This document shows, one piece after another, positions 1,320 to 40,065 of a DNA stretch of 64,000 nucleotides. Below the pieces are notes generated by a model. That model was not told the DNA's origin. It saw nothing but the letters and a program-made list of their open reading frames with translations, and searched no databases. The position numbers were made by a program, and so were the translations under genes. Source of the stretch: Aromatoleum toluclasticum ATCC 700605 (GTDB lineage: Bacteria > Pseudomonadota > Gammaproteobacteria > Burkholderiales > Rhodocyclaceae); assembly GCF_000378245.1 (NCBI RefSeq), contig NZ_KB899514.1, positions 1 through 64,000 of the forward strand, in the 5' to 3' direction. The stretch's first letter is position 1. Each line of letters starts with the position of its first letter.

Positions 1320-1378
1320 CCCACGATCCTAAGCATTACCCATCCAATATTTGCAACGTCTTGCATTTTTTTTGGATT
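1320..1378. other. Remnant between the IS and the last attC
   Basis: These 59 bases lie between the right end of the IS and the attC at 1379. They are AT-richer than the surroundings, with a T8 run, and hold no gene. They are probably the start of an eighth cassette cut by the IS, or the original distal flank of the array. Confidence 0.4.
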
Positions 1379-1450
1379 GTCTAACGTGGCGCTTCAGCGG
1401 ACGGCAAAATGCGCAGCATTTTGACGGTCCGCTGCAAGCACTGGTTATGC
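1379..1450 (-). repeat. attC site 7 (most distal)
   Basis: Bounded by GTCTAAC (1379-1385) and GTTATGC (1444-1450), matching the RYYYAAC / GTTRRRY core pair. An imperfect inverted repeat lies inside (GCGGACGG... / ...CCGTCCGC), with a central hairpin around AAAATGCGCAGCATTTT. It follows the 3' end of the ATPase cassette gene. Confidence 0.85.
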
Positions 1451-2716: not shown

Positions 2717-2743
2717 GAGCCCCTCCAAAAATGATTTTTCGCT

Positions 2744-2810
2744 GCATAACGTTTGAATTCACCGGCCTGCGCGGCTTTTCGCGCAGGTCCGCTCGACTGA
2801 AAGGCTAGGC
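2744..2810 (-). repeat. attC site 6
   Basis: Begins with GCATAAC at 2744. Its other end is GCTAGGC (2804-2810), where GTTAGGC would be expected, so the recombining GTT triplet is degenerate. The interior is a clear hairpin: CCTGCGCG, short loop, CGCGCAGG. Confidence 0.8.
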
Positions 2811-3350
2811 GGCTGCACGGCGCACCTCGAACTGTCTGTCTATCCGATTGCGCAGCCGAGCAAGCTCCTCCTTGTATGTGCCCTCCGCCTGTTCAAAAGA
2901 AAGCTCACGGAAGCTAAGCTCGAGCACGAAGGACTTTTGCATACGGGACGATATCTTCTTCCGGTAACGCTCAAACCTATCAAGCGCGAAGTAGTCGTAG
3001 ATTGGATCACTACGTCCCAGTACCTTCGGCGCAGATATGCCCTCTACGAGTTCGTGAACTTTATGGCCGATCTTGTTGCGGACATCAATGATTTGTTGAA
3101 GGTCAATGCTCTCCTTCTCGGTAATGACATCTTCCTGTACCAAGATAGCGAGCGCCTTTTCCATTGGCCTTTTGGCATTGAGCGGCAGGCGACCGCCCCG
3201 TCCGCCGGTAGCGGAGGCCAGCCTGTCGGTCGCTCGAATTGAACCGATAACGAATGTTCGAAGAGACTCCACCTGATGCAACAGCAATACCATTTGGAGC
3301 GCGCGGTACTTCAATATGTTCTTTTCGAGAGCCGGCAGTGCGGGGCGCAT
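2805..3350 (-). CDS. Integron cassette gene: HEPN-like protein
   Basis: A 181 aa soluble, mostly helical protein. Residues 91-96 read RNKIGH inside the helix IIDVRNKIGHKVHEL. This fits the Rx4-6H motif of HEPN domains, with the usual polar residue after the Arg. HEPN proteins are commonly RNases in toxin-antitoxin and abortive-infection systems. The C-terminal half is charged and possibly coiled (SFEQAEGTYKEELARLRNRIDRQFEVRR). The stop codon lies inside the attC site. The assignment rests on one motif plus helical character; no full-domain match can be claimed. Confidence 0.65.
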   Translation of the reverse strand: MRPALPALEKNILKYRALQMVLLLHQVESLRTFVIGSIRATDRLASATGGRGGRLPLNAKRPMEKALAILVQEDVITEKESIDLQQIIDVRNKIGHKVHELVEGISAPKVLGRSDPIYDYFALDRFERYRKKISSRMQKSFVLELSFRELSFEQAEGTYKEELARLRNRIDRQFEVRRAAA

Positions 3351-3360
3351 ATTTCTAGCC

Positions 3361-3474
3361 GCCTAACGTCGGAGTTGACCGGCACGCAGCGGCATTGCGC
3401 CGCGAGGCGTACGCTCACCAGCACGCCTCGCGGCGCAATGCCGCTGCGTGTCCGTGTCGAACGACCTGTTAGCC
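3361..3474 (-). repeat. attC site 5, with an unusually long perfect stem
   Basis: Bounded by GCCTAAC (3361-3367) and GTTAGCC (3468-3474), total 114 bp. The interior has a perfect 28-bp inverted repeat (3383-3410 and 3423-3450) around a 12-base loop. It follows the gene for the 203 aa unknown protein. Confidence 0.9.
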
Positions 3475-3475
3475 T

Positions 3476-4087
3476 TCATCGGCGCCTCGGTAGACGCAGT
3501 GGGTTTTCAACCCGCCAGTCACCGTGATACGGAAAGTGCTCCAAGTGGAACCTGATGGTTTCAAGAGCGAACTTGCGGAATATCCTGTCGTTCCACAGGG
3601 CGGTGATCTTCTTCTTCGGCTCACGGCGAACTTGCCTGGTGCGGTCATAGACCCATCCCTGGTAAGGATCCAATTTCGGACGATCGCGCCCCTCCCAGTG
3701 TCCGTGGGGCACCGCTGGGTACGGATCAGCATCAAGGGGCCGGAACTCCCATTTCGCTAAGCCGGTATGCGGCCCAGGATAAAGGTAAAGGAAGTCAGGC
3801 TCGTCATCGAAGTCGCCGCCATTCCCGCCACCAGGGCGCAGCGTGGTCCGACCTTGTTCATTTGACCCGGAGGTGATCTCACCTTCCTCCCAGTCGTCTT
3901 CCATAGGCCACTCGCTCAAAGCGAGTATGCGTTCGGCCGAAGTCCGTGTGGGATTCTTCGGAGCGCACATGGCACAAAGCGCTAACAGCCTGTCCATGGT
4001 CTCTGTCCAGCTCGCCAAACCGGCGAACTGCGAGAGCCTGATGATTTCGAGCAGATCAGCAGCCGCTCGATACGAGAGGTGTTCCAT
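3476..4087 (-). CDS. Integron cassette gene: unknown protein, 203 aa
   Basis: I do not recognise the family. The N-terminal ~50 residues look helical (MEHLSYRAAADLLEIIRLSQF). A low-complexity acidic, Gly-rich linker follows (about residues 62-95, with DDWEEGE and GGGNGGDFDDE). The Trp/Tyr/Pro-rich C-terminal region contains LDPYQGWVYDRTRQ and ends in an Arg-rich tail. No signal peptide or membrane segment is seen. The stop is two bases from the attC core, typical of compact cassettes. Confidence 0.7.
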   Translation of the reverse strand: MEHLSYRAAADLLEIIRLSQFAGLASWTETMDRLLALCAMCAPKNPTRTSAERILALSEWPMEDDWEEGEITSGSNEQGRTTLRPGGGNGGDFDDEPDFLYLYPGPHTGLAKWEFRPLDADPYPAVPHGHWEGRDRPKLDPYQGWVYDRTRQVRREPKKKITALWNDRIFRKFALETIRFHLEHFPYHGDWRVENPLRLPRRR

Positions 4088-4090
4088 GAA

Positions 4091-4177
4091 GGCTAACGTA
4101 GAGCTAACCGGCGCTGCGCGGCTTTATCGCGCAGCGTCCAGCGACCGAAGGGAGCGAGGTTGAGCGTAGTGTTAGGG
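4091..4177 (-). repeat. attC site 4
   Basis: Bounded by GGCTAAC (4091-4097) and GTTAGGG (4171-4177), 87 bp. The interior hairpin is GCTGCGCG / CGCGCAGC around a CTTTAT-type loop. The stop codon of the YdjM-like gene (TAA) lies inside the GTTAGGG core. Confidence 0.88.
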
Positions 4178-4708
4178 AACAGTGGGGGCATTGGTTGCCG
4201 TTACTGTGATTTTGTGATGGCGTGCCTTACGCCAGAGATAAATAGCCCAAACAACCACGGCAATTTCGATTGCAAATGACCAATGCAGCAGGAAGTTTAG
4301 CCACCACGGTTTATAGAGGGCTGGAACGGTAAAGAAGGCGAATGGCTCGCTGCCCCAAGGCGCAAACCACCAAATGTCACCAACGATGGTGTCCAGAATC
4401 ATATGGACAAACCCATTCAACGAGAATATTGAAGCGCACGCTGCGTAATTCTTTTTTGATGCGGTGAAAAGCCAAGCTGAGGACGCAGTCAGTAGTACGA
4501 GCCAGACAACCGGGTAGTGTGTGAAGTAAGTGTGGTGATGGTGTTGCCGGTGGTCAACGAGGTGGAAATAGAACATGTCTAAGTCGGGAGCCACGGCGCC
4601 GATTACACCGGCCAAAATAAACGCCTTCGCCGACACCTCCGTTGGTTCCGCATAGCGAATTAATAGCCTTGAAATTATGTAGCCGGCAGGCAAGTGGCCG
4701 ATGAGCAT
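4172..4708 (-). CDS. Integron cassette gene: YdjM-like membrane-bound metal-dependent hydrolase
   Basis: A 178 aa inner-membrane protein with about four or five hydrophobic segments. The signature region GAVAPDLDMFYFHLVDH followed by an HHHHTYFTHYP histidine cluster matches the DUF457 / YdjM family of membrane-bound metal-dependent hydrolases. In E. coli the family is known for SOS-linked YdjM; the substrate is unknown. The ATG at 4708 lies six bases from the attC core, and nothing upstream in frame is coding. Lower GC than the chromosome. Confidence 0.8.
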   Translation of the reverse strand: MLIGHLPAGYIISRLLIRYAEPTEVSAKAFILAGVIGAVAPDLDMFYFHLVDHRQHHHHTYFTHYPVVWLVLLTASSAWLFTASKKNYAACASIFSLNGFVHMILDTIVGDIWWFAPWGSEPFAFFTVPALYKPWWLNFLLHWSFAIEIAVVVWAIYLWRKARHHKITVTATNAPTVP

Positions 4709-23479: not shown

Positions 23480-24043
23480 TCAGTTGAAACCGGGCTCGAA
23501 ATCCGCGGACGCAGCCTCGCCCGCCCCGATCGGCGGCCGCGCCTGCACCGCGGCGAGAATCCCCGCCAGGATCTCCGCCGGCGGCGGCGGACAGCCCGGC
23601 ACCGTCACGTCCACCGGGATCACGTTAGCCACGCCGCCGCAGCTCGCGTAGCTCTCGCCGAAGATCCCGCCGCTGCAGCCGCAATCCCCCACCGCGACGA
23701 CGAGCTTGGGCGCCGGCGTCGCGTCGTAGGTGCGCCGCAGCGCGACTTCCATGTGGCGCGACACCGGCCCGGTCACCAGCAGCATGTCGGCATGGCGCGG
23801 GCTGGCGACGAAGCGGATGCCGAGGCCCTCGATGTTGTAGTAGGGGTTGTTCAGCGCATTGATCTCGAGATCGCAGCCGTTGCACGACCCGGCATCGACG
23901 TGCCGGATCGCCAGCGCGCGGCCGAGGATCGCGAGGAGGTCCGCGTGGATCGCGTGTGCGGCACGGTGCGCGCCCTCCAGCGGTTCGGGCGGCGGCTCGG
24001 TGACACGGCCGCGGCGGGCGATGTACTTCAGGATGTGCCACAT
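23480..24043 (-). CDS. hyfI: Hyf/NuoB-like small subunit of an Ehr complex
   Basis: 187 aa. Equivalent to HyfI/HycG and NuoB. It keeps all four cysteines for the proximal [4Fe-4S] cluster: Cys54 and Cys57 (SCNGCDLE), Cys121 (GDCGC) and Cys151 (PGCPPPP). The ATG at 24043 overlaps the TAA stop of the large-subunit gene by one base, so the two are translationally coupled; the longer frame upstream is a shadow. Last gene of the complex operon. Confidence 0.92.
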   Translation of the reverse strand: MWHILKYIARRGRVTEPPPEPLEGAHRAAHAIHADLLAILGRALAIRHVDAGSCNGCDLEINALNNPYYNIEGLGIRFVASPRHADMLLVTGPVSRHMEVALRRTYDATPAPKLVVAVGDCGCSGGIFGESYASCGGVANVIPVDVTVPGCPPPPAEILAGILAAVQARPPIGAGEAASADFEPGFN

Positions 24044-25587
24044 TACAGATCCTGCCCCGAGTAGCTCAGATTGAAGGACTTGTTGATCAGCGGGAAGTCG
24101 GGAACGATGTTGCCGATGATCGCGTGCTCCAGCACCGGCCAGTTCTGCCACGACGGATCGTGGCAATGGCAGCGTGCGATGCGCCCCTGCGCGTTGGTCT
24201 CCAGCGCGACGAACACTTCGCCGCGCCAGCCTTCGATCCAGCCGGCGCCGACACCGTCCCGCACGACGAGGACCGGCTCATGCACCGCCCCGCCCGGCAG
24301 ACCGGCGACGAGCGCGTCGATCATCCGCAGCGACGCGAAGCACTCCTCGAAGCGCATCGCGACGCGGGCCGCGACGTCGCCGTTGCGATGCGTGCAGGCC
24401 GTGACCGCGAGACCGTCGTAGGGCGGCCACGGAAAGTCCGCCCGCAGGTCGGCTGTCTGCCCGCTCGCCCGTCCCGCTAGCCCCGTCAGGCCCAGGCGCT
24501 GCGCGAGCTCCGGCGTGACGCGGCCGGTCGTGACGAGCCGGTCCTGCAAGCCGGCGTGTTCGTCGTAGATGTCCTTCAGCTCGGCGACCTCGCGCGCGAT
24601 CGCCGTCACCTGGCGGCGCAGCTTCACGCAAGCGTCCGCATCGAGGTCGCGCGCGACCCCGCCGGGACGGACGCAATCCATCAGCAGGCGATGGCCGAAG
24701 CACTCGCGGTTCAATCGCAGCCAGTCCTCGCGCAGACGCGAAAACTGCGCGAGGGCGAAGCCGAACGCCGCGTCGTTGCCGAGTGCGCCGAGGTCGCCGA
24801 GATGGTTCGCGACGCGCTCGCGTTCGAGCAGCAGCGCGCGCAGCCACGCCGCGCGCTGGGGCGCCTTCACGCCGGCGAGCGATTCCGTCGCCATCGCGTA
24901 GGCCCACGCATACGCAACGGTGCTGTCGCCCGACACCCGCCCGGCCAGCCGCGCGCCCTCGTCCGTGTCCATGCCCATGAAGCGGCGCTCGATGCCCTTG
25001 TGCTTGTAGCCGAGCCGCTCCTCGAGCCGCAGCACCTTCTCGCCCACCACCGAAAAGCGGAAGTGCCCCGGTTCGATCGTGCCGGCGTGCACCGGCCCGA
25101 CCGCGATCTCATGCACGCCGTCGCCGTCGACAAGGACGAAGGGGTAGGCATCGGCCTGCGGCTCGAAGTGCTCCTGGCCAGTGTTCCCGATGCGCAGCGG
25201 GAAATAGTCCGCCGGCCACGCGCCGTGACGCAGCCACGGGCGGTCGTCGGCTGCATCCTCGGCCTCGATGCCGACCAGGTCGCGCGCGGCGCGCTGCATG
25301 CGGATCGCCGCAGGGAAGAAGCGCGAGATGTCCGGGTAGGCGGGTTTCGCCGCATCCAGCCCGAGCTTCGCCCACAGCAGCCCGTCCGCTGTCGCATACG
25401 CCGCCGACACCGCGAAACCGTCGCCGGTGGCACGCTCGTCGCTGCCCCACAGGCTCACGAGCCGCCCCCTGGCCTCCGCCACGGCCAGCGCGAGCGCGCT
25501 CCACTGCGCGGCATGCACCCGCGCGCCGAAGATCGGCAAGGGCGCATCGAGTCGGTCGAAGCGGCAATCGAGTCCGAAAAACTCCAT
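24043..25587 (-). CDS. hyfG: Hyf-like large subunit (NuoCD-type) without nickel-iron ligands
   Basis: 514 aa. The N-terminal ~150 residues resemble the NuoC / 30 kDa domain and the rest the NuoD / [NiFe] large subunit (GPVHAGTIEPGHFRF, HKGIERRF). Where hydrogenases have RVCGIC, this protein reads RVSGDS (217-222); where they have DPCxxC it reads DPSWQN (477-482). All four metal cysteines are therefore absent and it cannot bind an NiFe centre. This defines an energy-converting-hydrogenase-related (Ehr) complex, not a hydrogenase. Start ATG 25587 overlaps the region of the HyfF stop. Confidence 0.92.
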   Translation of the reverse strand: MEFFGLDCRFDRLDAPLPIFGARVHAAQWSALALAVAEARGRLVSLWGSDERATGDGFAVSAAYATADGLLWAKLGLDAAKPAYPDISRFFPAAIRMQRAARDLVGIEAEDAADDRPWLRHGAWPADYFPLRIGNTGQEHFEPQADAYPFVLVDGDGVHEIAVGPVHAGTIEPGHFRFSVVGEKVLRLEERLGYKHKGIERRFMGMDTDEGARLAGRVSGDSTVAYAWAYAMATESLAGVKAPQRAAWLRALLLERERVANHLGDLGALGNDAAFGFALAQFSRLREDWLRLNRECFGHRLLMDCVRPGGVARDLDADACVKLRRQVTAIAREVAELKDIYDEHAGLQDRLVTTGRVTPELAQRLGLTGLAGRASGQTADLRADFPWPPYDGLAVTACTHRNGDVAARVAMRFEECFASLRMIDALVAGLPGGAVHEPVLVVRDGVGAGWIEGWRGEVFVALETNAQGRIARCHCHDPSWQNWPVLEHAIIGNIVPDFPLINKSFNLSYSGQDL

Positions 25588-25589
25588 GC

Positions 25590-27044
25590 TCAGCCTCCGA
25601 TCATCTGGGCCGCCTGGCGGTACCAGCCGTCGAGGTAGGGCGGAATGTAAAGCCCGAGCAGCAGCGCGAGCCCGAGATGGACGAACACCGGCAGCAGCGC
25701 CGGCGGGTGGGCGAGCGGGCGCAGCGAGGTCTCGCCGAACACCATCGGCTGCACGCGCCCGAAGATCGCGGCGAACGCGACGCCCAACGCCACGAGCAGG
25801 AAGGGCGTGGCCCACGGCGCCTCGCGCATCGCCGTCGTCAGGATCAGGAACTCGCTTGCGAACACGCCGAAGGGCGGCATGCCGAGGATCGCCAGCGAAC
25901 CGAGCATCAACCCCCAGCCGACCGTCGGATTCACCTTCAGCAGGCCGCGGATGTCCTCCATCGCCTGCGAACCGGCCTTCTGCGCGGCGTGGCCGACGGC
26001 GAAGAAGATCGCGGACTTCACCAGCGCATGCACCGTCATGTGCAGCAGCCCGGCGAAGTTCGCGATCGGGCCGCCCAGGCCGAACGCGAAGGTCATCAGC
26101 CCCATGTGCTCGATCGACGAGTACGCGAACATGCGCTTGACGTCGCGCTGGCGCGACAGGAAGAAGGCCGCGACGACAACCGTGACGAGGCCGAAGCCGA
26201 TCATCATGCGCCCGGGCAGGCCGTTCGCGAGCGCCCCGTCCGCCAGCACCTTGCAGCGCAGCAGCGCGTACAGCGCCACGTTCAGCAGCAGGCCCGACAG
26301 CACCGCCGAGATCGGCGTCGGGCCTTCCGCATGCGCGTCGGGCAGCCAGTTATGCACCGGCACCAGGCCGACCTTGGTGCCGTAGCCGAGCAGCAGGAAG
26401 ACGAAGGCCAGCGACAGGATGCCGGGATCGAGCAGGTGCTTGGACTGCGCGAGGTGCGTCCACAACAGCGCCCCCTCGCCGCCCCCGATCGCGCGCTCGG
26501 CGGCGAGGTAGAGCAGGATGGTGCCGAACAGCGCCTGCGCGATGCCCACGCCGCACAGGATGAAGTACTTCCACGCCGCCTCCAGGCTCGCCGGGGTGCG
26601 ATACACCGACACCAGCAGCACCGTGGTCAGCGTCGCCGCCTCCATCGCCACCCACAGGATGCCGAGGTTGTTGGTCGTCAGCGCGACCAGCATCATGCCG
26701 TTGAAGAGCTGGTACATGCTGTGGAAGAGCCGCATGCGCCCGGGCGTCATCTTGCCGTGGTCGCGCTCGATGCGCATGTAGGGCCGCGAGAACAGCGAAG
26801 TCGTGAAGCCGACGAAGGCGGTCAGGGTGACGAGGAAGACGTTGAGCGGATCGACGAAGAACCACTCGCCCCACACCGTGAGCGGCCCGTCGCGCACGAC
26901 GATCACCGTGAGCCAGACGGAGGCGGCCAGCGTGAGCAGGCTCATGCCGGCGTTCAGCTCCCCGGCCCGCTCGCGGTGGCCCCACAAGCCGAGCAGCACG
27001 CCGCCCAGCAGCGGAGTCGCGAGGACGAGGACTAGGGGATCCAT
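25590..27044 (-). CDS. hyfF: Hyf-like antiporter subunit F (NuoL/M/N family)
   Basis: 484 aa integral membrane subunit with about 14 helices, of the Mrp-antiporter / NuoN type. Key proton-path residues are visible in MEAATLTTVLLVSVYRTPASLEAAWKYFILC and the lysine-bearing TKVGLVPVHNWLPDAHAEGPTPISAVLSGLLLNVALY. Likely moves H+ or Na+. Its ATG overlaps the stop of hyfE (ATGA). Confidence 0.93.
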   Translation of the reverse strand: MDPLVLVLATPLLGGVLLGLWGHRERAGELNAGMSLLTLAASVWLTVIVVRDGPLTVWGEWFFVDPLNVFLVTLTAFVGFTTSLFSRPYMRIERDHGKMTPGRMRLFHSMYQLFNGMMLVALTTNNLGILWVAMEAATLTTVLLVSVYRTPASLEAAWKYFILCGVGIAQALFGTILLYLAAERAIGGGEGALLWTHLAQSKHLLDPGILSLAFVFLLLGYGTKVGLVPVHNWLPDAHAEGPTPISAVLSGLLLNVALYALLRCKVLADGALANGLPGRMMIGFGLVTVVVAAFFLSRQRDVKRMFAYSSIEHMGLMTFAFGLGGPIANFAGLLHMTVHALVKSAIFFAVGHAAQKAGSQAMEDIRGLLKVNPTVGWGLMLGSLAILGMPPFGVFASEFLILTTAMREAPWATPFLLVALGVAFAAIFGRVQPMVFGETSLRPLAHPPALLPVFVHLGLALLLGLYIPPYLDGWYRQAAQMIGG

Positions 27045-27703
27045 CAGTCTTCCTTCAGCTTTTCGAGATGGCGGATGTCCAGACTGTCGAACTGCTCGCG
27101 GATCTGGAACATGAACACGCCGAGGATCAGGATGCCGACCAAGACGTCGAACGCGATGCCCAGCTCGACGATCATCGGCATGCCGCTGGTTGCCGCGGTG
27201 GCCGCGAAGAACAGGCCGTTCTCCATCGACAGGAAGCCGATCACCTGCGGCACCGCCTTGGCGCGCACGATCATCATCAGGAAGGACAGCAGCACGCAGG
27301 CGAGCGCGATGCCCAGCGTGCCGCGCGCGACCGACTCCGACAGCCCGGCGATCGGCGCGGCGAGATTGAACGCGAAGATCACCAGCACGATGCCGATCAG
27401 CATCGTCGTCGGGATGTTGAACAGCGTCTCGACGTCCCAGCGCACGTTCAGGCGCCGGATCACCCGGTGCAGCAGGATCGGAATCAGGACCACCTTCAGC
27501 ACGAAGGTCAGCACGCCGGAGAAGTACAGGTGGTGCTGGCCGGTGAGATACCCGACGATCAGCGTCGCCGCCGCGAGCGCCGCGCCCTGCAGCGTGAACA
27601 GGTGGATCAGCGTGAGGATGCGGCGCTGCGCGATCATCGCGAACGCGAGCACCAGCAGCACCACCGCGAAGAGGTTGATCGACTGGGAGAGGAGCGTGTT
27701 CAT
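27044..27703 (-). CDS. hyfE: Hyf-like membrane subunit E (NuoK-related)
   Basis: 219 aa, six or seven membrane helices. The segment RAKAVPQVIGFLSMENGLFFAATAATSGMPMIVELGIAFDVLVGILILGVFMFQIRE carries the Glu residues conserved in HyfE/NuoK. It lies between hyfC (6-base gap) and hyfF (overlap). Confidence 0.92.
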   Translation of the reverse strand: MNTLLSQSINLFAVVLLVLAFAMIAQRRILTLIHLFTLQGAALAAATLIVGYLTGQHHLYFSGVLTFVLKVVLIPILLHRVIRRLNVRWDVETLFNIPTTMLIGIVLVIFAFNLAAPIAGLSESVARGTLGIALACVLLSFLMMIVRAKAVPQVIGFLSMENGLFFAATAATSGMPMIVELGIAFDVLVGILILGVFMFQIREQFDSLDIRHLEKLKED

Positions 27704-27709
27704 GAGCGT

Positions 27710-28657
27710 CTATGCTCCAAGCAGCACATGCACCAGCAGCGCGATCACCGCGAGCAGGAAGGCCGTCGCGAGGAACTCCGGCACGCGGAAGAGCCGCATC
27801 TTCGCGTTGATCGTCTCAATCAGTGCCAGCAGCACACCGCCGACCGCCAGCTTCACGACCAGCATCGGAATCGCGAACAGGATCGCCAGCGGCGTACCCG
27901 CCTCCGCGACGCCCCACGGCACGAACAGCGCGAGGCCGATGCACGAATACGCGAACAGCTTCAGCGACGCCGCCCATTCGACCAGCGCCAGATGGCGCCC
28001 CGAATATTCCAGGATCAGTGCCTCGTGGATCATCGTCAGTTCGAGGTGCGTGGCGGGGTTGTCGACCGGCACGCGCGCATTCTCCGCCAGCGACACCATC
28101 GTGAATGCGACGCCCGCCACCGCCAGGCTCGGGTAGATCGCGAAGGGCTGGTGCGCGAGCGTCTCGACGATCATCGCAAGCGAGGTCGACTGCGTGATCA
28201 GCGAGGCCGAGAACAGCACCATCAGCAGCGCCGGCTCGGCGAGGAAGCCGATCAGCATCTCGCGCCGTGCCCCCAGCGTGCCGAAGGAGGTGCCGATGTC
28301 CATCGCCGCGAGCGAGATGAACACGCGCGCCAGTGCGAACAGGCCGACCAGCGCGATCGCGTCGGCCGCGGGCGCCAGCGGCAGGTCGGTCGACAGCGTC
28401 GGCGCGATGCCGCACGCGAGCGCCATGCAACCGAACATGATGTAGGGCGCGACGCGGAAGATCGGCGTGGCGTGCTCGGCGACGACCGATTCCTTGTTGA
28501 AGAGCTTGTGCAGCACGCGGTAGGGCTGAAGCAGGCCCGGCGCGCGCCGGTTCTGCAGCCACGCGCGCCACTGGTTCACCCACCCCGTCAGCAGCGGCGC
28601 CAGCGCCAGCGCGAGGAGAATGGCGAGCAACTGCGCGAACAGGCCGACGATGCTCAT
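27710..28657 (-). CDS. hyfC: Hyf-like membrane subunit C (NuoH-type)
   Basis: 315 aa NuoH/HycD-like subunit with about eight helices. Typical loops: RRAPGLLQPYRVLHKLFNKESVV, DIGTSFGTLGARREMLIGFLAEPALL, and LAENARVPVDNPATHLELTMIHEALILEYSGRHLALVEWAASLKLF, which carries the conserved acidic residues near the quinone/FeS side. The ATG at 28657 overlaps the TGA of hyfB; a much longer frame upstream is only a shadow of hyfB. Confidence 0.93.
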   Translation of the reverse strand: MSIVGLFAQLLAILLALALAPLLTGWVNQWRAWLQNRRAPGLLQPYRVLHKLFNKESVVAEHATPIFRVAPYIMFGCMALACGIAPTLSTDLPLAPAADAIALVGLFALARVFISLAAMDIGTSFGTLGARREMLIGFLAEPALLMVLFSASLITQSTSLAMIVETLAHQPFAIYPSLAVAGVAFTMVSLAENARVPVDNPATHLELTMIHEALILEYSGRHLALVEWAASLKLFAYSCIGLALFVPWGVAEAGTPLAILFAIPMLVVKLAVGGVLLALIETINAKMRLFRVPEFLATAFLLAVIALLVHVLLGA

Positions 28658-30654
28658 GATTTCACCACCACCAGCAGGACCATCAGGGTCACGAAGCTGT
28701 ACAGCAGGTAGATCGCGATGCGCCCCTGCTGTAGCCGCCCCACGACGCGCGCGATGCCGGCCGTGAGGCGCGCGACCGGCAGGTAGAGCCAGTGCCAGAA
28801 ATGGTCCTCGATCGTGACGCGATAATGCGGTTTCGCGTCGAACGGCGAAGGCAGTTCGCGTCGCATGCGGAAGAAGGGCTCGAAGATCTGGCGGATCGGC
28901 TGGCCGAAGCCCTCGGCCGTATCCTGCATGCGCGCCGTTTGCGCCGGATAGCCGCAGTCCCATGCCGGCGCGCGGCGCAGGCGTCCGTGATAGAACTTGC
29001 GCACGAGCACCGCCGCGAACAGCACCGCGACGCTGACGACCAACAGGAACACCAGCGGGCTGTAGCTCGCACGGTCGGGCGAACTCGGCGACAGCAGCAG
29101 CCAGCCGTTCGCACGCACCGTCTCGGCGATGCCGCCGCCCACCAGCAGCTGTGTGACGGGGTCGATGAGACCGATCGCCGCCACCGGGAACAGGCCCAGC
29201 AGCACACAACCCGCACCCAGCCAGACGAGACCCGCGCGTTCGAGCGGCGATGCCGGATGCGCGTCGGCGAGCTTGGGCTCGCGTGGCTGGCCGAGGAAGA
29301 TCACGCCGTAGAACTTCACCATCGTGTAGCCGGCGAGCGCCGCGACCAGCGCGATGCCCGCGGCGAGCACCGGCACCAGCATGTTGAGGAAGGAGTCCGG
29401 CAGGCCCGTCGTGAACAGGAAGCTCTGCAGCAGCAGCCATTCCGACACGAAGCCGGAGAACGGCGGCAGCCCCGAACTCGCCAGCACGCCGACGAGCGAC
29501 AGCCACGCCACCCAGGGCATGCGCCGCATCAGGCCGCCCAGCTTGCCCAGACTGCGCTCGCCGGTCGAGTGCAGCACCGAGCCGGTCGCGAGAAACAGCA
29601 GACTCTTGAAGAAAGCATGGCCGAGGGCGTGGTACAGCGCCGCCGTCAGCGCCAGCGCCGACAGCGCCTTCATGCCGTAGGCGTTGAACAGCACGCCGAG
29701 GCCGATGCCGACGAAGAGCAGGCCGATGTTCTCGATCGACGAATACGCGAGCAGGCGCTTCATGTCCGTCTGCACCGCGCTGAACACGACGCCGTACAGC
29801 GCGGTCGCGAGGCCGACCGCCAGCAGCAGCACGCCCCACCACCACTGCTGCGCACCGAGCAGGTCGAAGCTCACGCGCAGCAGGCCGTAGATCGCGGTCT
29901 TCAGCATCACGGCGCTCATCAGCGCGGACACGGGCGACGGCGCTGCCGGATGGGCTTCCGGCAGCCACACGTGCAGCGGCAGGATGCCCGCCTTCGCGCC
30001 GAAGCCGACCGTCGCGAGCAGGAAGGCGACCGACGCCCACAGCGGCGACAGCGACTGCGCGCGCATGTTGGCGAAGGTGTAGTCGCCGGTGTTCGCCTGC
30101 AGCACGCCGAAGCACAGCAGGATTCCGATTGCGCCGATGTGGGCGATGAGCAGGTACAGGAAACCCGCCTCGCGGATCGCCGGCACGCGATGGTTGGCGG
30201 TGACGAGGAAGAACGAGGACAGCGCCATCGTCTCCCACATCACCATGAAGGCGTAAGCGTCGTCGGCCAGCACGACCAGCGCCATGCTGGCGAGGAATAG
30301 GTGGTATTCGAGGCACATCAGGCCGGGCGGCGTGCCCTCGCCGTGGCGGAAGTAGCCCGCGGCGAAGACCGAAACCCCGACCGAGATCGCGCCGATCACG
30401 AGCAGGAAGAAGGCCGACAGCCCGTCGAGCCGCAGGTGGAAAGGCAGGTCCGGCAGCCCGATGGCGAGCACCGCGGTTTCCGGAGTGCCGAGCAAGCCGG
30501 CGAAGGCGAGCCCCGCGAGCGCCATTCCCAGAGCGGCGCCGGCCGGAAAGAGCACGCGGGCGACGAACGCGGTGTTGCGCAGCACGCCGATCCCGGCAAA
30601 CCCCAGTATGAGCCAGCCGGCGATAACGATCAGGATCCAGTCGAGAAGCAGCAC
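28654..30654 (-). CDS. hyfB: Hyf-like antiporter subunit B (NuoL-like)
   Basis: 666 aa, about 16 helices, proton-conducting transporter family. Signature regions: LASMALVVLADDAYAFMVMWETMALSSFFLVTANHR (helix 5 Glu) and KAGILPLHVWLPEAHPAAPSPVSALMSAVMLKTAIYGLLRV (helix 7/8 Lys/His). It opens the six-gene order B-C-E-F-G-I. No HyfA/HyfH ferredoxin-like gene, formate dehydrogenase or maturation gene is in the window. A 15-base gap separates it from the spermidine-synthase-like gene upstream. Confidence 0.93.
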   Translation of the reverse strand: MLLLDWILIVIAGWLILGFAGIGVLRNTAFVARVLFPAGAALGMALAGLAFAGLLGTPETAVLAIGLPDLPFHLRLDGLSAFFLLVIGAISVGVSVFAAGYFRHGEGTPPGLMCLEYHLFLASMALVVLADDAYAFMVMWETMALSSFFLVTANHRVPAIREAGFLYLLIAHIGAIGILLCFGVLQANTGDYTFANMRAQSLSPLWASVAFLLATVGFGAKAGILPLHVWLPEAHPAAPSPVSALMSAVMLKTAIYGLLRVSFDLLGAQQWWWGVLLLAVGLATALYGVVFSAVQTDMKRLLAYSSIENIGLLFVGIGLGVLFNAYGMKALSALALTAALYHALGHAFFKSLLFLATGSVLHSTGERSLGKLGGLMRRMPWVAWLSLVGVLASSGLPPFSGFVSEWLLLQSFLFTTGLPDSFLNMLVPVLAAGIALVAALAGYTMVKFYGVIFLGQPREPKLADAHPASPLERAGLVWLGAGCVLLGLFPVAAIGLIDPVTQLLVGGGIAETVRANGWLLLSPSSPDRASYSPLVFLLVVSVAVLFAAVLVRKFYHGRLRRAPAWDCGYPAQTARMQDTAEGFGQPIRQIFEPFFRMRRELPSPFDAKPHYRVTIEDHFWHWLYLPVARLTAGIARVVGRLQQGRIAIYLLYSFVTLMVLLVVVKS

Positions 30655-30669
30655 GCCCCCTCCCCGATA

Positions 30670-31536
30670 TCAGCGGCGGCGACGGTCGACGATCCAGTCG
30701 TCGGGGCCGCGCTCGCGTCGTCGTTCGAGACTGTGCTGGATGCGCTGTGCGAGCGGGACCAGCCCGATGGGATGCGCGGCCGAGAGCGCCTGCGCACGCT
30801 CCAAAAGTTCCCTGCGCCCAGGCGGGAAATGCCTGTCCTTGCTCGCGAAGACGATGCGATTCGAATCCTCGCCCGCACGCACGACGACGACACGGCCATC
30901 GAAGCTTTCGCGGATACGCGACGCGTGCACGCCGTAACGCGGATCGCCGGACCACAGGTTGAGGACCACCATCCCGCCCTCCGCAAGCATCGCGCAGCAG
31001 TGATCGTAGAAACCGGCCGAGCACAACTGGCCCGGAATGCCTGCGACATCGAATCCGTCGACGATCAGCACGTCGGGCGACTCGCCCGGATTGCGCACGT
31101 AGTCCGCACCGTCACGACACAATACCCGCAAACGCGGGCCATCCTGAGGAATTCCGAACGCTTCGCGCAACGCAATCACATCCGGATTGATCTCGACCGC
31201 CGTGACAGTCGTTTCGGGCAAGTTTTCGAGGCAATACTTGACCAGCGAACCGCCGCCCAGGCCGATCATCGCGATGTGGCGCGGGGCCGGGTGCAACAGC
31301 AGGAAGCCCATGATCGAGCGCGTGTAATCGAGCACGAGCGCACCGGGATCATCCACCGCCATCTGGCTCTGGATCGTGACGCCGTCGAACTGCAGCGAAC
31401 GCTGGCCGTCGACTTCGACGATGAAGGGTCGCCCGTCACCGCGCCGGGACATCAACCCGCACCAGCCGACCATATCCTCCCTGTCGCCCACTTGCTGCAC
31501 TCCCTGAGTGTGCCATTGCGTTTGCATCAGTTGCAC
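30670..31536 (-). CDS. Spermidine-synthase-like methyltransferase-fold protein
   Basis: 288 aa. The Rossmann-type core of the spermine/spermidine synthase family: MIGLGGGSLVKYCLENLP (nucleoside site), VTAVEINPDVIALREAFGIP, CRDGADYVRNPGESPDVLIVDGFDVAG, and EGGMVVLNLWS. There is no speD or other polyamine gene nearby, and many such proteins are not true spermidine synthases. A 15-base gap to hyfB on the same strand suggests shared transcription with the Ehr complex. An alternative start lies at 31527. Confidence 0.82.
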   Translation of the reverse strand: MQLMQTQWHTQGVQQVGDREDMVGWCGLMSRRGDGRPFIVEVDGQRSLQFDGVTIQSQMAVDDPGALVLDYTRSIMGFLLLHPAPRHIAMIGLGGGSLVKYCLENLPETTVTAVEINPDVIALREAFGIPQDGPRLRVLCRDGADYVRNPGESPDVLIVDGFDVAGIPGQLCSAGFYDHCCAMLAEGGMVVLNLWSGDPRYGVHASRIRESFDGRVVVVRAGEDSNRIVFASKDRHFPPGRRELLERAQALSAAHPIGLVPLAQRIQHSLERRRERGPDDWIVDRRRR

Positions 31537-31603
31537 ACTACATTATTATCCTTGCTGCTTTCAATGTTAATTTGATGTTAATCGCAACTCCGGCCACCGC
31601 GTG

Positions 31604-31786
31604 ATGAAAGAGAACCGAACCGCCCGCCTGACCCTGCTGATCGATCCGGAAAAGAAGAAAATCTTCGAGGAAATCTGTGCCGGCAAGGACTTGACGCCCT
31701 CGCAGGTGGTACGCCGACTGATCCGCCAGTACGTGCAGGAGAATGCCGGCAACAGGACGCTGCCGGAGTGGCTGAAGGACGACTGA
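31604..31786 (+). CDS. Small ribbon-helix-helix-like protein
   Basis: 60 aa from ATG 31604 (a GTG at 31601 is also in frame). The sequence ENRTARLTLLIDPEKKKIFEEICAGKDLTPSQVVRRLIRQYV has the beta strand plus two helices of a CopG/ribbon-helix-helix DNA-binding fold. It is divergent from the spermidine-synthase-like gene and could regulate the operon; no partner toxin is adjacent. No strong ribosome site is visible. Confidence 0.7.
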   Translation: MKENRTARLTLLIDPEKKKIFEEICAGKDLTPSQVVRRLIRQYVQENAGNRTLPEWLKDD

Positions 31787-31862
31787 GGCGTTCCGCCCGG
31801 TTCCGATTTCCGGCGGGATGACCGCCGGGCAAATCCCCCGGGCGTCCGGGTGCCCCGCCCGC

Positions 31863-32714
31863 TCAGGGCATGCGCCGGCGGATATCGCCCGATGCCGCCG
31901 GGTCGGCCATGCGGGCCGTCACCAGCCCCGGCAGCTCCTCCGCGCGGTCGAACAACCGTTGTGCGGCAACGAGGGCACGCGGCATGCCCCAGCGCACCAC
32001 CGCCATGCGCCCGTCGAAGTGCTCGACGATCGCGCTGCAGCTGTCCACCCAGTCGCCGCAGTTCAGGTAACGCACGCCCTCGATCTCGCAGTCCGCGGCC
32101 CAGTGGATGTGCCCGCAGATCACCCCGTCCAGCCCCTTGCGACGCGTCGCGTGCGCGATCGACGCCTCGAAATCGAAGATGAAGCTCACCGCGCGCTTCA
32201 CCTTCTGCTTCGCGTAGCCCGCCAACGACCAATAGCCCGGCCGTCTGAGCACGCGCCGCACGCGCGACAGCCACAGGTTGATGCGCACCAGCGTGTTGTA
32301 GGCCACGTCGCCCAGCAGCGCGACCCAGCGGTGATGGCGCGTGACCTGGTCGTACTCGTCGCCATGCACGACCCAGTAATGGCGGCCGTCGGCTGCCTCA
32401 TGCACCCACTCGGATTCGACGCGGATGTCGCCGAACGCGATCCCCGCATACTCGCGCAACGCCTCGTCGTGGTTGCCGGGAACGAGGAACACCTTGCAAC
32501 CCTGGCGCGCGCGCCGCAGCACCTTCTGCACCACGGTGTTCTGCATCACATTCCACTGGATGCCGCGGTTCATGGCCCAGAAATCGACGATGTCACCGAC
32601 CATGTAGAGGTAGTCGGACGGATGCTCGCGCAGGAAGTCGAGCAGCGGCCCGGCCTGGCACGCGCGAGTGCCGAGATGGACGTCGGAGATGAAGACGGAG
32701 CGGACCTGGGGCAT
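31863..32714 (-). CDS. LpxH-like UDP-2,3-diacylglucosamine diphosphatase family protein
   Basis: 283 aa metallophosphoesterase. Metal-binding motifs in order: SDVHLGT, GDIVDFW, GNHDE, VVHGDEYD and GHIHWA. The family includes LpxH and related phosphatases acting on lipid A precursors; this longer form is often next to a glycosyltransferase, as here. The ATG at 32714 begins four bases after the glycosyltransferase stop, so the two form an operon. Confidence 0.88.
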   Translation of the reverse strand: MPQVRSVFISDVHLGTRACQAGPLLDFLREHPSDYLYMVGDIVDFWAMNRGIQWNVMQNTVVQKVLRRARQGCKVFLVPGNHDEALREYAGIAFGDIRVESEWVHEAADGRHYWVVHGDEYDQVTRHHRWVALLGDVAYNTLVRINLWLSRVRRVLRRPGYWSLAGYAKQKVKRAVSFIFDFEASIAHATRRKGLDGVICGHIHWAADCEIEGVRYLNCGDWVDSCSAIVEHFDGRMAVVRWGMPRALVAAQRLFDRAEELPGLVTARMADPAASGDIRRRMP

Positions 32715-32718
32715 TTCG

Positions 32719-33945
32719 CTAGCGCACCGTGGCCTTGAAGGGAAGAAAGTCGGGAAGCGCGGACTGCGCCTCGTCCACCACACGCTGCAGCAAATTTGCA
32801 AAACGGTCGTTGATGCGCTCCCACTCGAGCGATTCGCTGCGCTTGCGGGCCGCCAGCGCGATCCGCGCGCGCAGCTCCCCGTCCGACGCGGCGACCACCG
32901 ACTCGGCCACGAAGGCCGTCGCCGCACCGGGCCGCACCAGCATTCCGTCGCCCCCGCTGGAGATCACCTCGGCGGCCGCGGCGCAGTCGTAGGCGACCAC
33001 GCACAGCCCGCTCGCCATCGCCTCCAGCGTGACGTTGCCCCAGGTTTCCGACAGGCTGGGGAACAGGAACAGGTCGCCCGACGCGTAGTGCGCGGCCAGA
33101 TCCCCGCCCCGGCGCGCACCGGCAAACACGACATCCGGGTTGCCCTCCTGCAGCGCCTTGCGCAGCGGCCCGTCGCCGACGATCACCAGCCGCGCGGCGG
33201 GCCTGCGGCGGCGGATCGCGGCGAACGCCTCCAGCACCAGCGGCAGGTTCTTCTCCGGCGCGACGCGCCCCACCCATACCACCACCGGATCGTCCGCCCC
33301 CGCACCCCAGGCCTCGCGCAGCGCCGCGCTGCGGCGCGCCGGGTTGAACATATCCGTATCCACCCCGCGCGCCACCACCTCCACGGAACGGTAGCCGCGC
33401 GCGCGCAGATCCTGCGCCATCGCGCGCGTCGGCACGAAGGTCACGGCGGTACGGTTGTGCATGCGCTTGAGCCACGCGGCGACGGGTCGCTCCAGCCAGC
33501 CCACGCCATAGTGCGCGCTGTAGCTGTCGAAGTTGGTATGGAAGTCCGACGTCACCGGAATGCCGAGACGGATCGACGCCGACACCGCCGACCAGCCCAG
33601 CGGCCCCTCGGTCGCCACATGCACGAGGTCCGGCCGCTGGCGCGACCACAGGCGGAAAAGCCGCGTGCGTGCGGGCAGCCCGAAGCGCAAGCCGTCGTAG
33701 TTCGGGATCTTCATCCCGTGCGCCAGCACCTCCTCGAAACCCGGGCCATCCGCCGCCCGGTCAGACAGGGCCTGGCGCGGGCGCACGAGCTGCACCCGGT
33801 GCCCGCGCGCGATCAGGCCATCGACCATGCGCCCCAGCGTCATCGCCACGCCGTTGATCTCCGGCGCCCAGGTCTCGGTGACCAGCGCGATGCGCAGGCT
33901 GGGCCGCAGGCAGCGTTCTTCGGTCACGAAATCGACGTCTTTCAT
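32719..33945 (-). CDS. Glycosyltransferase family 4 (MgtA/PimB-like)
   Basis: 408 aa GT-B fold enzyme. N-terminal acceptor domain starts RIALVTETWAPEINGVAMTLGRMVDGLIARGH. C-terminal nucleotide-sugar domain has VVWVGRVAPEKNLPLVLEAFAAIR, IVGDGPLRKALQ, and FLFPSLSETWGNVTLEAMASGLCVVAYDCAAAAEVI with the EX7E-type Glu. Probably transfers a sugar to a membrane glycolipid. Operon with the phosphoesterase at 31863. Confidence 0.9.
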   Translation of the reverse strand: MKDVDFVTEERCLRPSLRIALVTETWAPEINGVAMTLGRMVDGLIARGHRVQLVRPRQALSDRAADGPGFEEVLAHGMKIPNYDGLRFGLPARTRLFRLWSRQRPDLVHVATEGPLGWSAVSASIRLGIPVTSDFHTNFDSYSAHYGVGWLERPVAAWLKRMHNRTAVTFVPTRAMAQDLRARGYRSVEVVARGVDTDMFNPARRSAALREAWGAGADDPVVVWVGRVAPEKNLPLVLEAFAAIRRRRPAARLVIVGDGPLRKALQEGNPDVVFAGARRGGDLAAHYASGDLFLFPSLSETWGNVTLEAMASGLCVVAYDCAAAAEVISSGGDGMLVRPGAATAFVAESVVAASDGELRARIALAARKRSESLEWERINDRFANLLQRVVDEAQSALPDFLPFKATVR

Positions 33946-38811: not shown

Positions 38812-38828
38812 TTGGCACATCTGTTGCT
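38812..38828 (+). promoter_or_regulatory. Sigma-54 promoter of amt
   Basis: TTGGCACATCTGTTGCT matches TGGCAC-N5-TTGC (-24/-12). It lies 35 bases before the amt start codon, with an NtrC-like site upstream, predicting induction under nitrogen limitation. Confidence 0.85.
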
Positions 38829-38862: not shown

Positions 38863-40065
38863 ATGGAGCAGTTCAAGACTTCTGCGGATGTCCTTTTCGT
38901 GTTGCTGGGCGCCATCATGGTGCTCGCGATGCACGCGGGCTTCGCCTTCCTCGAACTCGGCACGGTGCGCAAGAAGAACCAGGTGAACGCACTCGTGAAG
39001 ATCCTCAGCGACTTCGCGATGTCCACGCTGGCCTACTTCGTCATCGGCTATTCGCTCGCCTACGGCAACGGCTTCTTCGTGAACGCCGAGCAACTGGCCG
39101 CCAACTCCGGCTACGAGCTGGTGAAGTTCTTCTTCCTGCTGACCTTCGCCGCCGCGATTCCCGCGATCATCTCCGGCGGCATCGCCGAGCGCGCGCGCTT
39201 CGGGCCGCAGCTCGTCGCCACCTTCCTGATCGTCGGCATCCTCTACCCCTTCTTCGAAGGCATCGTGTGGAACGGCAACCTCGGCCTGCAGGACTGGCTC
39301 GAAGGCACGTTCGGCGCGAAGTTCCACGACTTCGCCGGCAGCGTAGTCGTGCACGCATTCGGCGGCTGGATCGCGCTCCCCGCGGTGCTGCTGCTCGGCG
39401 CCCGCCGCGGCCGCTACCACAAGAACGGCCAGATCTCGGCGCACCCGCCGTCGAGCATCCCCTTCCTCGCGCTCGGCGCGTGGATCCTCGCCGTGGGCTG
39501 GTTCGGCTTCAACGTCATGAGCGCCCAGCGCCTCGACGCCATCAACGGTCTCGTCGCGCTGAACTCGCTGATGGCCATGATTGGCGGCACCCTCGCCGCC
39601 CTCGCGGCCGGCAGGAACGACCCCGGCTTCGTGCATAACGGCCCGCTCGCCGGCCTCGTCGCGGTGTGCGCCGGCTCCGACCTCATGCACCCGCTTGGTG
39701 CGCTCGCCGTCGGCGCCATCGCCGGCGTCCTCTTCGTCAATCTCTTCACGATCGCGCAAAACCGCTGGAAGATCGACGACGTCCTCGGCGTCTGGCCGCT
39801 TCACGGCCTTTGCGGCGCCTGGGGCGGTATCGCTGCCGGCATCTTCGGCAGCAAGGCGCTCGGCGGCATCGGCGGCATCAGCTTCGGCGCGCAGCTAGTC
39901 GGCACCCTGGGCGGCATCGTGATCGCCCTGGCGGGCGGCACCCTCGTCTATGGCCTGATCCGCGCCACCCTCGGCCTGCGCCTCGACCCCGAGGAAGAAT
40001 TCGCCGGTGCGGACCTCTCGATCCATAAGATCTCGTCGACCGCTGAGCGCGAGACGGCATGGTGA
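38863..40065 (+). CDS. amt: Ammonium transporter
   Basis: 400 aa, 11 helices. Amt signatures: LGAIMVLAMHAGFAFLELGTVRKKNQVNALVKIL, the first pore His in FAGSVVVHAFGGWIALP, FGFNVMSAQ, and the second in GVWPLHGLCGAWGGIAAGIFG. Imports ammonium across the inner membrane. No glnK is adjacent. Control by NtrC and sigma-54 is strongly indicated by the upstream sites. Confidence 0.93.
   Translation: MEQFKTSADVLFVLLGAIMVLAMHAGFAFLELGTVRKKNQVNALVKILSDFAMSTLAYFVIGYSLAYGNGFFVNAEQLAANSGYELVKFFFLLTFAAAIPAIISGGIAERARFGPQLVATFLIVGILYPFFEGIVWNGNLGLQDWLEGTFGAKFHDFAGSVVVHAFGGWIALPAVLLLGARRGRYHKNGQISAHPPSSIPFLALGAWILAVGWFGFNVMSAQRLDAINGLVALNSLMAMIGGTLAALAAGRNDPGFVHNGPLAGLVAVCAGSDLMHPLGALAVGAIAGVLFVNLFTIAQNRWKIDDVLGVWPLHGLCGAWGGIAAGIFGSKALGGIGGISFGAQLVGTLGGIVIALAGGTLVYGLIRATLGLRLDPEEEFAGADLSIHKISSTAERETAW

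Follow-up and report, generated by a model that had tools for sequence, protein, structure and literature searches.

The hyfBCEFGI operon of Aromatoleum toluclasticum and the case for a nickel-free, energy-converting hydrogenase-related complex

What does a hydrogenase-4-like operon encode when its large subunit seems to lack the nickel-iron site? The question is raised by hyfBCEFGI of Aromatoleum toluclasticum ATCC 700605, which lies in the 64,000-nucleotide stretch analysed here (positions 1 to 64,000 of contig NZ_KB899514.1, hereafter the window), part of a 77-kb contig in a 5.92-Mb genome of 46 contigs. The six open reading frames (ORFs) run on the minus strand from 30654 to 23480, overlapping or separated by gaps of a few bases (Table 1), and bear out the six-subunit operon that a first-pass annotation, made from the sequence alone, had placed there. 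That annotation read the locus as a complex of the Ehr (energy-converting hydrogenase-related) type that can carry electrons and pump ions and cannot make or use hydrogen; its observations are confirmed here in part, and its interpretation is partly supported. The locus almost certainly encodes a complete six-subunit Ehr complex, kept under selection, and we consider it fairly probable that this complex works as a redox-coupled ion pump.

Conserved residues of the six subunits

RVSGDS of HyfG does replace RVCGIC, as had been claimed: it aligns opposite that motif in Escherichia coli HyfG and HycE, as well as in a true Hyf (locus L051). DPSWQN, previously taken for the counterpart of DPCxxC, falls instead opposite APTYANW or AATYANW, and it is NLSYSG near the C-terminus that stands opposite DPCYSC, both in the alignment with L051 and in a hidden Markov model (HMM) alignment to the large subunit of formate hydrogenlyase (FHL; 7z0s_E, the best solved relative of HyfG, E 4.3e-90). 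Despite this one misplaced motif, the lack of a Ni-Fe site and the Ehr-type assignment are borne out by the ligand columns: among 163 HyfG rows from six-gene loci, 161 of which cover all four columns, 148 have no Ni-ligand cysteine and 13 have a single one, which in 11 rows is that of the first position; two or more occur in no row. His167, Asp221, Arg382, Arg455, Ser479, Asp497, Asn502, Lys503, Ser504, Asn506, Tyr509 and Asp513 are identical in all 161 rows. Because these polar residues are invariant while the ligand cysteines are gone, we read the pocket as rebuilt under selection, not as merely decayed. Large subunits of hydrogenases carry a C-terminal tail that is removed by maturation proteases; HyfG ends in SGQDL, without a tail.

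The small subunit keeps all four FeS cysteines attributed to it, with C54, C57 and C121 present in 155/155 homologues and C151 in every one of the 154 rows that cover it. Both antiporter-like subunits had been credited with intact proton-path residues, which holds in full for HyfB, where the equivalents of NuoM E144, K234, K265 and E407 are E, K, K and E (E141 in 137/138 homologues, K221 in 138/138, K252 in 129/138 and E405 in 137/138). HyfF retains three of the four, having E, K, N and E at these positions (E135 in 153/153, K224 in 154/154, Asn255 in 154/154 and E398 in 153/154), and Asn255, where NuoM has Lys265, is the residue of E. coli HyfF too. Two glutamates of HyfE are likewise conserved, E161 in 146/147 and E180 in 146/146. 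Judged by their sequences, HyfG and HyfI form a pair of the complex I/hydrogenase type in which there is one [4Fe-4S] motif (the N2 equivalent), the Ni-Fe ligands are missing and the polar residues at the former metal site are strictly conserved, and HyfC, HyfE, HyfB and HyfF are a predicted membrane arm with proton-path residues; the conserved residues themselves are what backs the ion pumping proposed earlier.

HyfB and HyfF pass the NCBIfam cut-offs of hydrogenase 4. In Pfam, the matches of HyfC, HyfG and HyfI are to complex I families, and HyfE finds no match. A NuoD-like large subunit without Ni-Fe ligand cysteines, a NuoB-like small subunit with N2-type cluster cysteines and NuoH-like together with Mrp/NuoL-like membrane subunits, the features by which Ehr is recognised, all occur in this one operon. 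The window complex has subunit types and sequence families in common with E. coli hydrogenase-4 (Hyf) and FHL-1 (Hyc, 7z0s). However, both CxxC motifs are lost, so that HyfG shows neither the RxCGxC nor the DPCxxC of a hydrogenase-4 large subunit, and neither HyfA, HyfD and HyfH, which mark a hydrogenase-4 operon, nor HyfJ and HyfR are encoded in the operon, as judged from ORFs and family searches. We conclude that the window complex is almost certainly of the Ehr type, without Ni-Fe. The earlier remark that the operon has no ferredoxin-like subunit holds for the window. The start codons of hyfG and hyfI were refined to ATG at 25587 and 24043, respectively.

Table 1. Features of the hyfBCEFGI operon and its upstream neighbours in the window
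Feature	Position	Strand	Description	Family match or basis
hyfB	28654..30654	-	NuoL/Mrp-like antiporter subunit, 666 aa, GTG start	NCBIfam PRK06521.1, 926 bits, above cut-off
hyfC	27710..28657	-	NuoH-like membrane subunit, 315 aa	PF00146, 121.7 bits, above cut-off
hyfE	27044..27703	-	Membrane subunit with two NuoK-like Glu, 219 aa	NCBIfam hydrogenase 4 membrane subunit, 85.8 bits, under cut-off of 136
hyfF	25590..27044	-	Second antiporter-like subunit, 484 aa	NCBIfam PRK06458.1-5, 896 bits, above cut-off
hyfG (EhrL)	24043..25587	-	NuoC/NuoD-like large subunit without Ni-Fe ligands, 514 aa	PF00346 and PF00329
hyfI (EhrS)	23480..24043	-	NuoB-like small subunit, 187 aa	PF01058, 109.4 bits
RVSGDS	24922..24939	-	HyfG 217-222	Counterpart of RVCGIC
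DPSWQN	24142..24159	-	HyfG 477-482	Counterpart of hydrogenase APTYANW, not of DPCxxC
NLSYSG	24055..24072	-	HyfG N506-G511, near last residue	Counterpart of DPCYSC
HyfI cluster-cysteine stretch	23591..23884	-	C54, C57, C121, C151	Alignment
Spermidine-synthase-like gene	30670..31473	-	ORF open from 31536	PF01564, 33.5 bits, above cut-off; NCBIfam PRK04457 under cut-off
Small ribbon-helix-helix-like gene	31601..31786	+	61 aa, divergent	Identified by eye, without family search

Occurrence, synteny and described relatives

A HyfG homologue at E <1e-100 is encoded in 30 of 61 genomes; at E <1e-70, the order has one in 105 of its 399 sampled genomes and the class in 44 of 369, the window genome being included each time. 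All six genes stand in the order B-C-E-F-G-I on a single strand at 140 of 165 loci; at the remaining 25, those detected likewise share a strand, with some missing, cut at a contig end or having their best match on another antiporter gene. In a FastTree phylogeny of 177 rows (163 from six-gene loci, together with NuoD, E. coli HyfG/HycE and a few more), the six-gene rows stand apart both from NuoD and from E. coli HyfG/HycE, with two changes needed for the group. The phylogeny proposed in the first-pass annotation is thereby supplied in part; the tree was built without published Ehr references and is made unsure by several long branches, with values below 80 on 59 of its 173 inner branches.

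Ehr complexes without Ni and Fe ligands have already been described (PMC6349859, PMC10284858). The hyfBCEFGI cluster was reported from Cupriavidus metallidurans and strain H16, where it was held very unlikely to serve lithotrophy (PMC2864759), and the six-gene cluster also from Nitrospira (PMC5596200); in that of Acidithiobacillus ferrooxidans, HydDB finds no hydrogenase catalytic subunit (PMC7735108), Acidithiobacillus caldus has hyfBCEFG (PMC3826726), and an EHR-like complex of Mycobacterium tuberculosis was judged with high certainty not to be a hydrogenase (PMC6728331). The cluster of C. metallidurans CH34 (Rmet_4666-4671, L264; PMC2864759), although from another genus, resembles that of the window in its six genes, their order and strand, and its HyfG, 63% identical, reads RVSGDST and SFNLSYAGHD. 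Geobacter sulfurreducens Ehr (GSU0739-45), a multisubunit membrane complex akin to Ech/Hyf hydrogenases whose named subunits include EhrA, C, L and S, can be likened by description only and spans seven locus tags as against six genes in the window (PMC7894505). The window operon, then, is a well-preserved Ehr complex of a known kind.

Besides hyfG, the window genome has two NuoD genes on contigs C20 (L054) and C18 (L065), each near a NuoB-like gene; 435-residue copies of the C20 kind, with similar scores, are among the matches listed in G004 and G015. At L074 (12175-19500, a complete BCEFGI set after the first one), L243 (about 2781-4241) and L042 (G019), the Ehr operon or its hyfG is present a second time, beside the first or in the same genome, with about 45-49% identity. 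At L098 (about 23-4428), an E-F-G-I set whose hyfG has all four cysteines (RICGVCS, SFELCYSCTD) directly precedes the Ehr operon, possibly a true group 4 hydrogenase in tandem with the nickel-free complex. A diverged copy upstream of the Ehr operon in L082 includes a HyfI-like protein of 249 aa (3007-3756) that starts, by eye, with a ferredoxin-like CxxCxxxC stretch; some Ehr relatives may carry a ferredoxin domain of their own. Operon genes F, G and I also occur on L108, a metagenome-assembled contig filed as Bordetella parapertussis.

Quinone, hydrogen and formate as alternatives

The homology of HyfG, HyfI and HyfC to NuoD, NuoB and NuoH would be consistent with an oxidoreductase that is linked to quinone as complex I is but has another kind of quinone site. 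However, His38 and Tyr87 of Nqo4, which we take to be quinone residues of complex I, correspond to Ile171 in 161/161 homologues and to Leu214 in 154/161 (HMM alignment to 2fug_4). A classical complex I quinone site is therefore unlikely, and the operon also has no NuoI- or NuoEFG-like gene, so that complex I is matched neither in these residues nor in gene content. On balance, we find a quinone-linked function of this kind rather doubtful.

Linkage to hydrogenase maturation genes, named in the first pass as something that would speak for hydrogen, was not seen: hypD of the window genome lies on another contig than the operon, and six of the 30 operon-bearing genomes, five of them at least 99% complete, have no hypD match, so that the operon may not need hypD, although hypD is commoner overall in genomes that carry it (see below). 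Further matches to the large-subunit family PF00374 indicate that the window genome probably has an ordinary hydrogenase elsewhere. That the complex cannot make or use hydrogen is likely on sequence grounds, but hyqRBCEFGI of Azorhizobium caulinodans, with the same six structural subunits as the window and without HyfA or HyfD, was termed an endo-hydrogenase (PMC2650096), and a later paper gives 'bidirectional' activity for it (PMC3357923). Deletion of hyq lengthened the diazotrophic doubling time from 7.2 to 8.8 h, a deficit that remained at 20% H2, and hyq expression requires nifA (PMC2650096). R. leguminosarum is listed among the hyq carriers by the same authors, Ng et al. (PMC2650096), and the sequence comparison was made through Rhizobium johnstonii 3841, whose pRL11 carries a helix-turn-helix (HTH) gene followed by hyfBCEFGI. 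Its large subunit is of the Ehr type: it shows RTSGDST and SFNCSYSGHD and lacks every ligand cysteine, and the identical protein is encoded in a record that bears the name R. leguminosarum. If A. caulinodans HyqG resembles it, the hyq phenotype would be that of an Ehr mutant and no evidence of hydrogen recycling.

A Hyq-type endo-hydrogenase that works despite the missing ligands would accord with the growth defect, nifA control and activity published for Hyq, as well as with the presence of both nifH and hypD in the window genome. Nevertheless, not one of the 161 homologues has two ligand cysteines, the R. johnstonii protein and its R. leguminosarum twin have none, HyfG lacks a maturation-protease tail, and the growth deficit was not cured by hydrogen. 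The promoter features of Hyq are missing as well: there is no NifA site (TGT-N10-ACA) at 30600-33000, upstream of the window operon, sigma-54-like matches with at most one mismatch occur in the window only at 25428 and 38813, both on the plus strand, and the spermidine-synthase-like gene stands directly before hyfB, where Hyq has its regulator, HyqR (PMC2650096). We therefore regard an endo-hydrogenase here as highly improbable. The match at 38813 has the sigma-54 consensus without mismatch (TGGCAC-N5-TTGC), and 86 bases beyond it begins a called gene (38899-40065) that is ammonium-transporter-like by eye. A small HTH gene does directly precede hyfB on its strand in seven loci and in R. johnstonii (L144, L170, L171, L173, L181, L198, L200 and L263, of which L171 duplicates L144), and may be a HyqR-type regulator.

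It may also be asked whether the complex provides the membrane portion for a chain that starts from formate dehydrogenase or CO dehydrogenase (CODH), which we hold to be very unlikely. In its favour, an association of formate dehydrogenase with Ehr was proposed for Riflemargulisbacteria (PMC6349859), Ehr proteins of G. sulfurreducens reach higher abundance on formate (PMC7894505), the core hyf copy of A. caldus has a formate dehydrogenase a few genes upstream (PMC3826726), and the cluster of Ca. Nitrospira nitrosa adjoins CODH, although those of two other strains do not (PMC5596200). Against it, no formate dehydrogenase was recognised when the neighbour clusters that recur were given names by eye, so that a single-locus case would be missed. 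The alpha subunit of formate dehydrogenase (Fdh-alpha) is above cut-off in 23/30 operon-bearing and 18/31 other genomes, and G019 and G035 have the operon without an Fdh-alpha match at 1e-100; the true Hyf of G023, by contrast, has Fdh-alpha and hypD within about 11 kb. Such partners are possible elsewhere than in the window. For nitrogen fixation, nifH is found in 16/30 operon-bearing and 7/31 other genomes (p 0.018, G017 being counted from two pieces), but counted by genus the figures are 7/17 and 6/28 (p 0.19), and this link was not relied on.

Gene neighbours, inorganic carbon and a working model

Neighbouring genes were called by codon usage, longest-ORF calling being unfit for GC-rich DNA, at 101 discovery loci, or 145 with a class-level set. 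The discovery set includes the best 80 of 573 contig matches and leans to close relatives; left out of the counts were the same-genus loci L035, L036, L063, L064 and L066, loci that were non-Ehr or unlike (L048, L051, L052, L054, L061, L062 and L065) and later, as duplicates of discovery loci, L171 and L259. Among the neighbours identified at the 101, then 145 loci, mostly by eye, there is no recurrent redox partner that adjoins the operon on its own strand. A transhydrogenase- or lipoamide-dehydrogenase-like flavoprotein clusters at 6/101 loci, mostly on the opposite strand and at a distance of one to six genes. Clusters of at least three loci take in only 295 of the 1066 neighbours. Those that recur are a spermidine-synthase-like gene (21 loci), MetG (15), a ribbon-helix-helix-like gene (14) and SulP, the window being counted for the first and third, as well as, by eye, an HTH protein and signalling proteins. 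In the window, the spermidine-synthase-like gene ends 16 bp before hyfB on the same strand and is possibly co-transcribed with the operon; the ribbon-helix-helix-like gene, mostly divergent and just upstream of the operon across its 14 loci, is a possible regulator.

Genes for SulP, gamma-, beta- or CsoSCA-like carbonic anhydrase (CA), DabA, RbcL, CbbQ or CbbO lie near the operon at 17/101 discovery, 4/43 class-level and 5/19 order-level loci (one duplicate dropped from each of the latter two sets), as against 0/40 control windows. The corresponding Fisher p-values, which treat related loci as independent, are 0.002, 0.07 and 0.002, and 0.009 for the later sets pooled (9/62). For the controls, round coordinates were chosen manually on contigs from 37 operon-bearing genomes in the first and the class-level set, with three more windows there; none comes from the order-level set or from contig-match loci. 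With the first seeds (SulP, carbonic anhydrases and DabA) the counts were 17/101 (L037 in by a weak beta-CA match, L127 out) and 2/44; the cbb seeds, added after these first counts, gave 17/101 and 4/44. SulP genes numbered 17 against 1.1 expected in the discovery set, 1 against 0.47 in the class-level set and 5 against 0.23 in the order-level set, the expectation being 0.64 matches per Mb over 61 genomes with split genes counted twice. SulP lies upstream of the operon on the same strand at 18 of 20 SulP-bearing loci. On the tree, SulP needs 14 changes for 20 loci and the housekeeping gene MetG 12 for 15; because MetG is equally scattered, scatter alone cannot tell function from chance.

Five SulP representatives match Pfam Sulfate_transp or NCBIfam sulP, three of them above the sulP cut-off; 'SulP' matches of 143-187 aa, which resemble universal stress proteins reached through one SulP tail, were not counted. 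Two gamma-CA-like representatives match Pfam Hexapep and stay under the cut-offs of the NCBIfam CcmM/carbonic anhydrase models, one CsoSCA-like protein is above its Pfam and under its NCBIfam cut-off, one DabA is above its Pfam cut-off, and a neighbour at L113 has no Pfam or NCBIfam match. RbcL, CbbQ and CbbO were named by eye and similarity only. At three loci, the gene called next downstream of hyfI encodes a CsoSCA-like CA of about 353-365 aa, on the operon strand in two (L046 11310-12371, minus; L096 12337-13395, plus; L185 11373-12470, in operon orientation). In the literature, hyf of A. caldus adjoins a beta-CA, with a second copy among carbon-fixation genes (PMC3826726). The A. ferrooxidans cluster is AFE2149-54 (PMC2621215) and its cbbM-Q-O-R genes are AFE_2155-58 (PMC6458275), an adjacency deduced from locus tags, the two papers agreeing on the sulP and can2 tags.

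In cyanobacteria, NDH-1 complexes serve CO2 uptake. By comparison, the complex might serve inorganic-carbon or pH homeostasis, its ion pumping energising or balancing bicarbonate import by SulP-type carriers together with carbonic anhydrase. The neighbour counts, the placement of SulP, the family matches of representative neighbours and the published Acidithiobacillus contexts all point in this direction, and the neighbourhood statistics, which are new here, hint at a CO2/bicarbonate link in some related bacteria. Against this, the window has none of these carbon-gene neighbours, and its genome has no RuBisCO match; RuBisCO (E <1e-100) is not significantly linked to the operon, with 14/30 operon-bearing and 9/31 other genomes (p 0.19). 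The class-level set taken alone is weak and without SulP enrichment, MetG makes recurrence a weak argument, and SulP carries other anions too. No Dab subunit lies in the operon: DabA adjoins it at only one of 101 discovery loci (L072), and neither DabA nor CupA/B, which would mark a DAB or NDH-1MS system, is part of it, no further gene being there (CupA/B were not searched for). The main text of an inorganic-carbon toolkit review makes no mention of hydrogenase, complex I, NuoL, NDH-1 or hyf (PMC10880623). We judge this role unlikely. Also unlikely is the wider proposal that nickel-free Ehr pumps ions in connection with the supply of CO2/bicarbonate or the accompanying pH balance, as a counterpart of the cyanobacterial CO2-uptake complexes, and that rhizobial Hyq is the same nickel-free machine, so that its published phenotype needs a new explanation.

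We therefore return to the redox-coupled Ehr pump as the favoured reading, because the six-gene order is conserved, no homologue has two or more ligand cysteines while the new polar residues are fully conserved, the FeS cysteines and most antiporter residues are kept, the FHL large subunit is the best solved relative, and the operon occurs without a hypD match in six genomes; the A. ferrooxidans and Cupriavidus reports (PMC7735108, PMC2864759) and the slower diazotrophic growth after hyq deletion (PMC2650096) also count for it. Weighing against it, hypD is commoner in genomes with the operon (24/30 against 13/31, p 0.004, uncorrected for kinship), which fits a hydrogen link; Ng et al. read Hyq as a hydrogenase (PMC2650096); and 771 of the 1066 neighbours lie outside recurrent clusters, without identification, so that a variable or unlinked partner could be missed. 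In such an Ehr pump, a soluble low-potential donor, shared with other pathways and encoded outside the operon, would dock on the HyfI/HyfG face. The single cluster would hand electrons on to a small acceptor that binds where the cavity has been rebuilt (Asp221, Ser479, Asn502-Lys503-Ser504, Asn506, Tyr509 and Asp513), and HyfB and HyfF would move H+ or Na+ in a manner coupled to this redox step, or to its reverse driven by membrane potential.

Ehr complexes are common, as their occurrence in about a quarter of the sampled genomes of the order illustrates, yet the papers cited here give no agreed reaction for any of them, and several annotations call their genes hydrogenase subunits. The corrected motif map provides a clean marker for Ehr. 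Together, the neighbour statistics and the comparison with Hyq lead to two testable claims: that the complex has a role when CO2 is low, and that the hyq phenotype of A. caulinodans arises from a cause independent of hydrogen.

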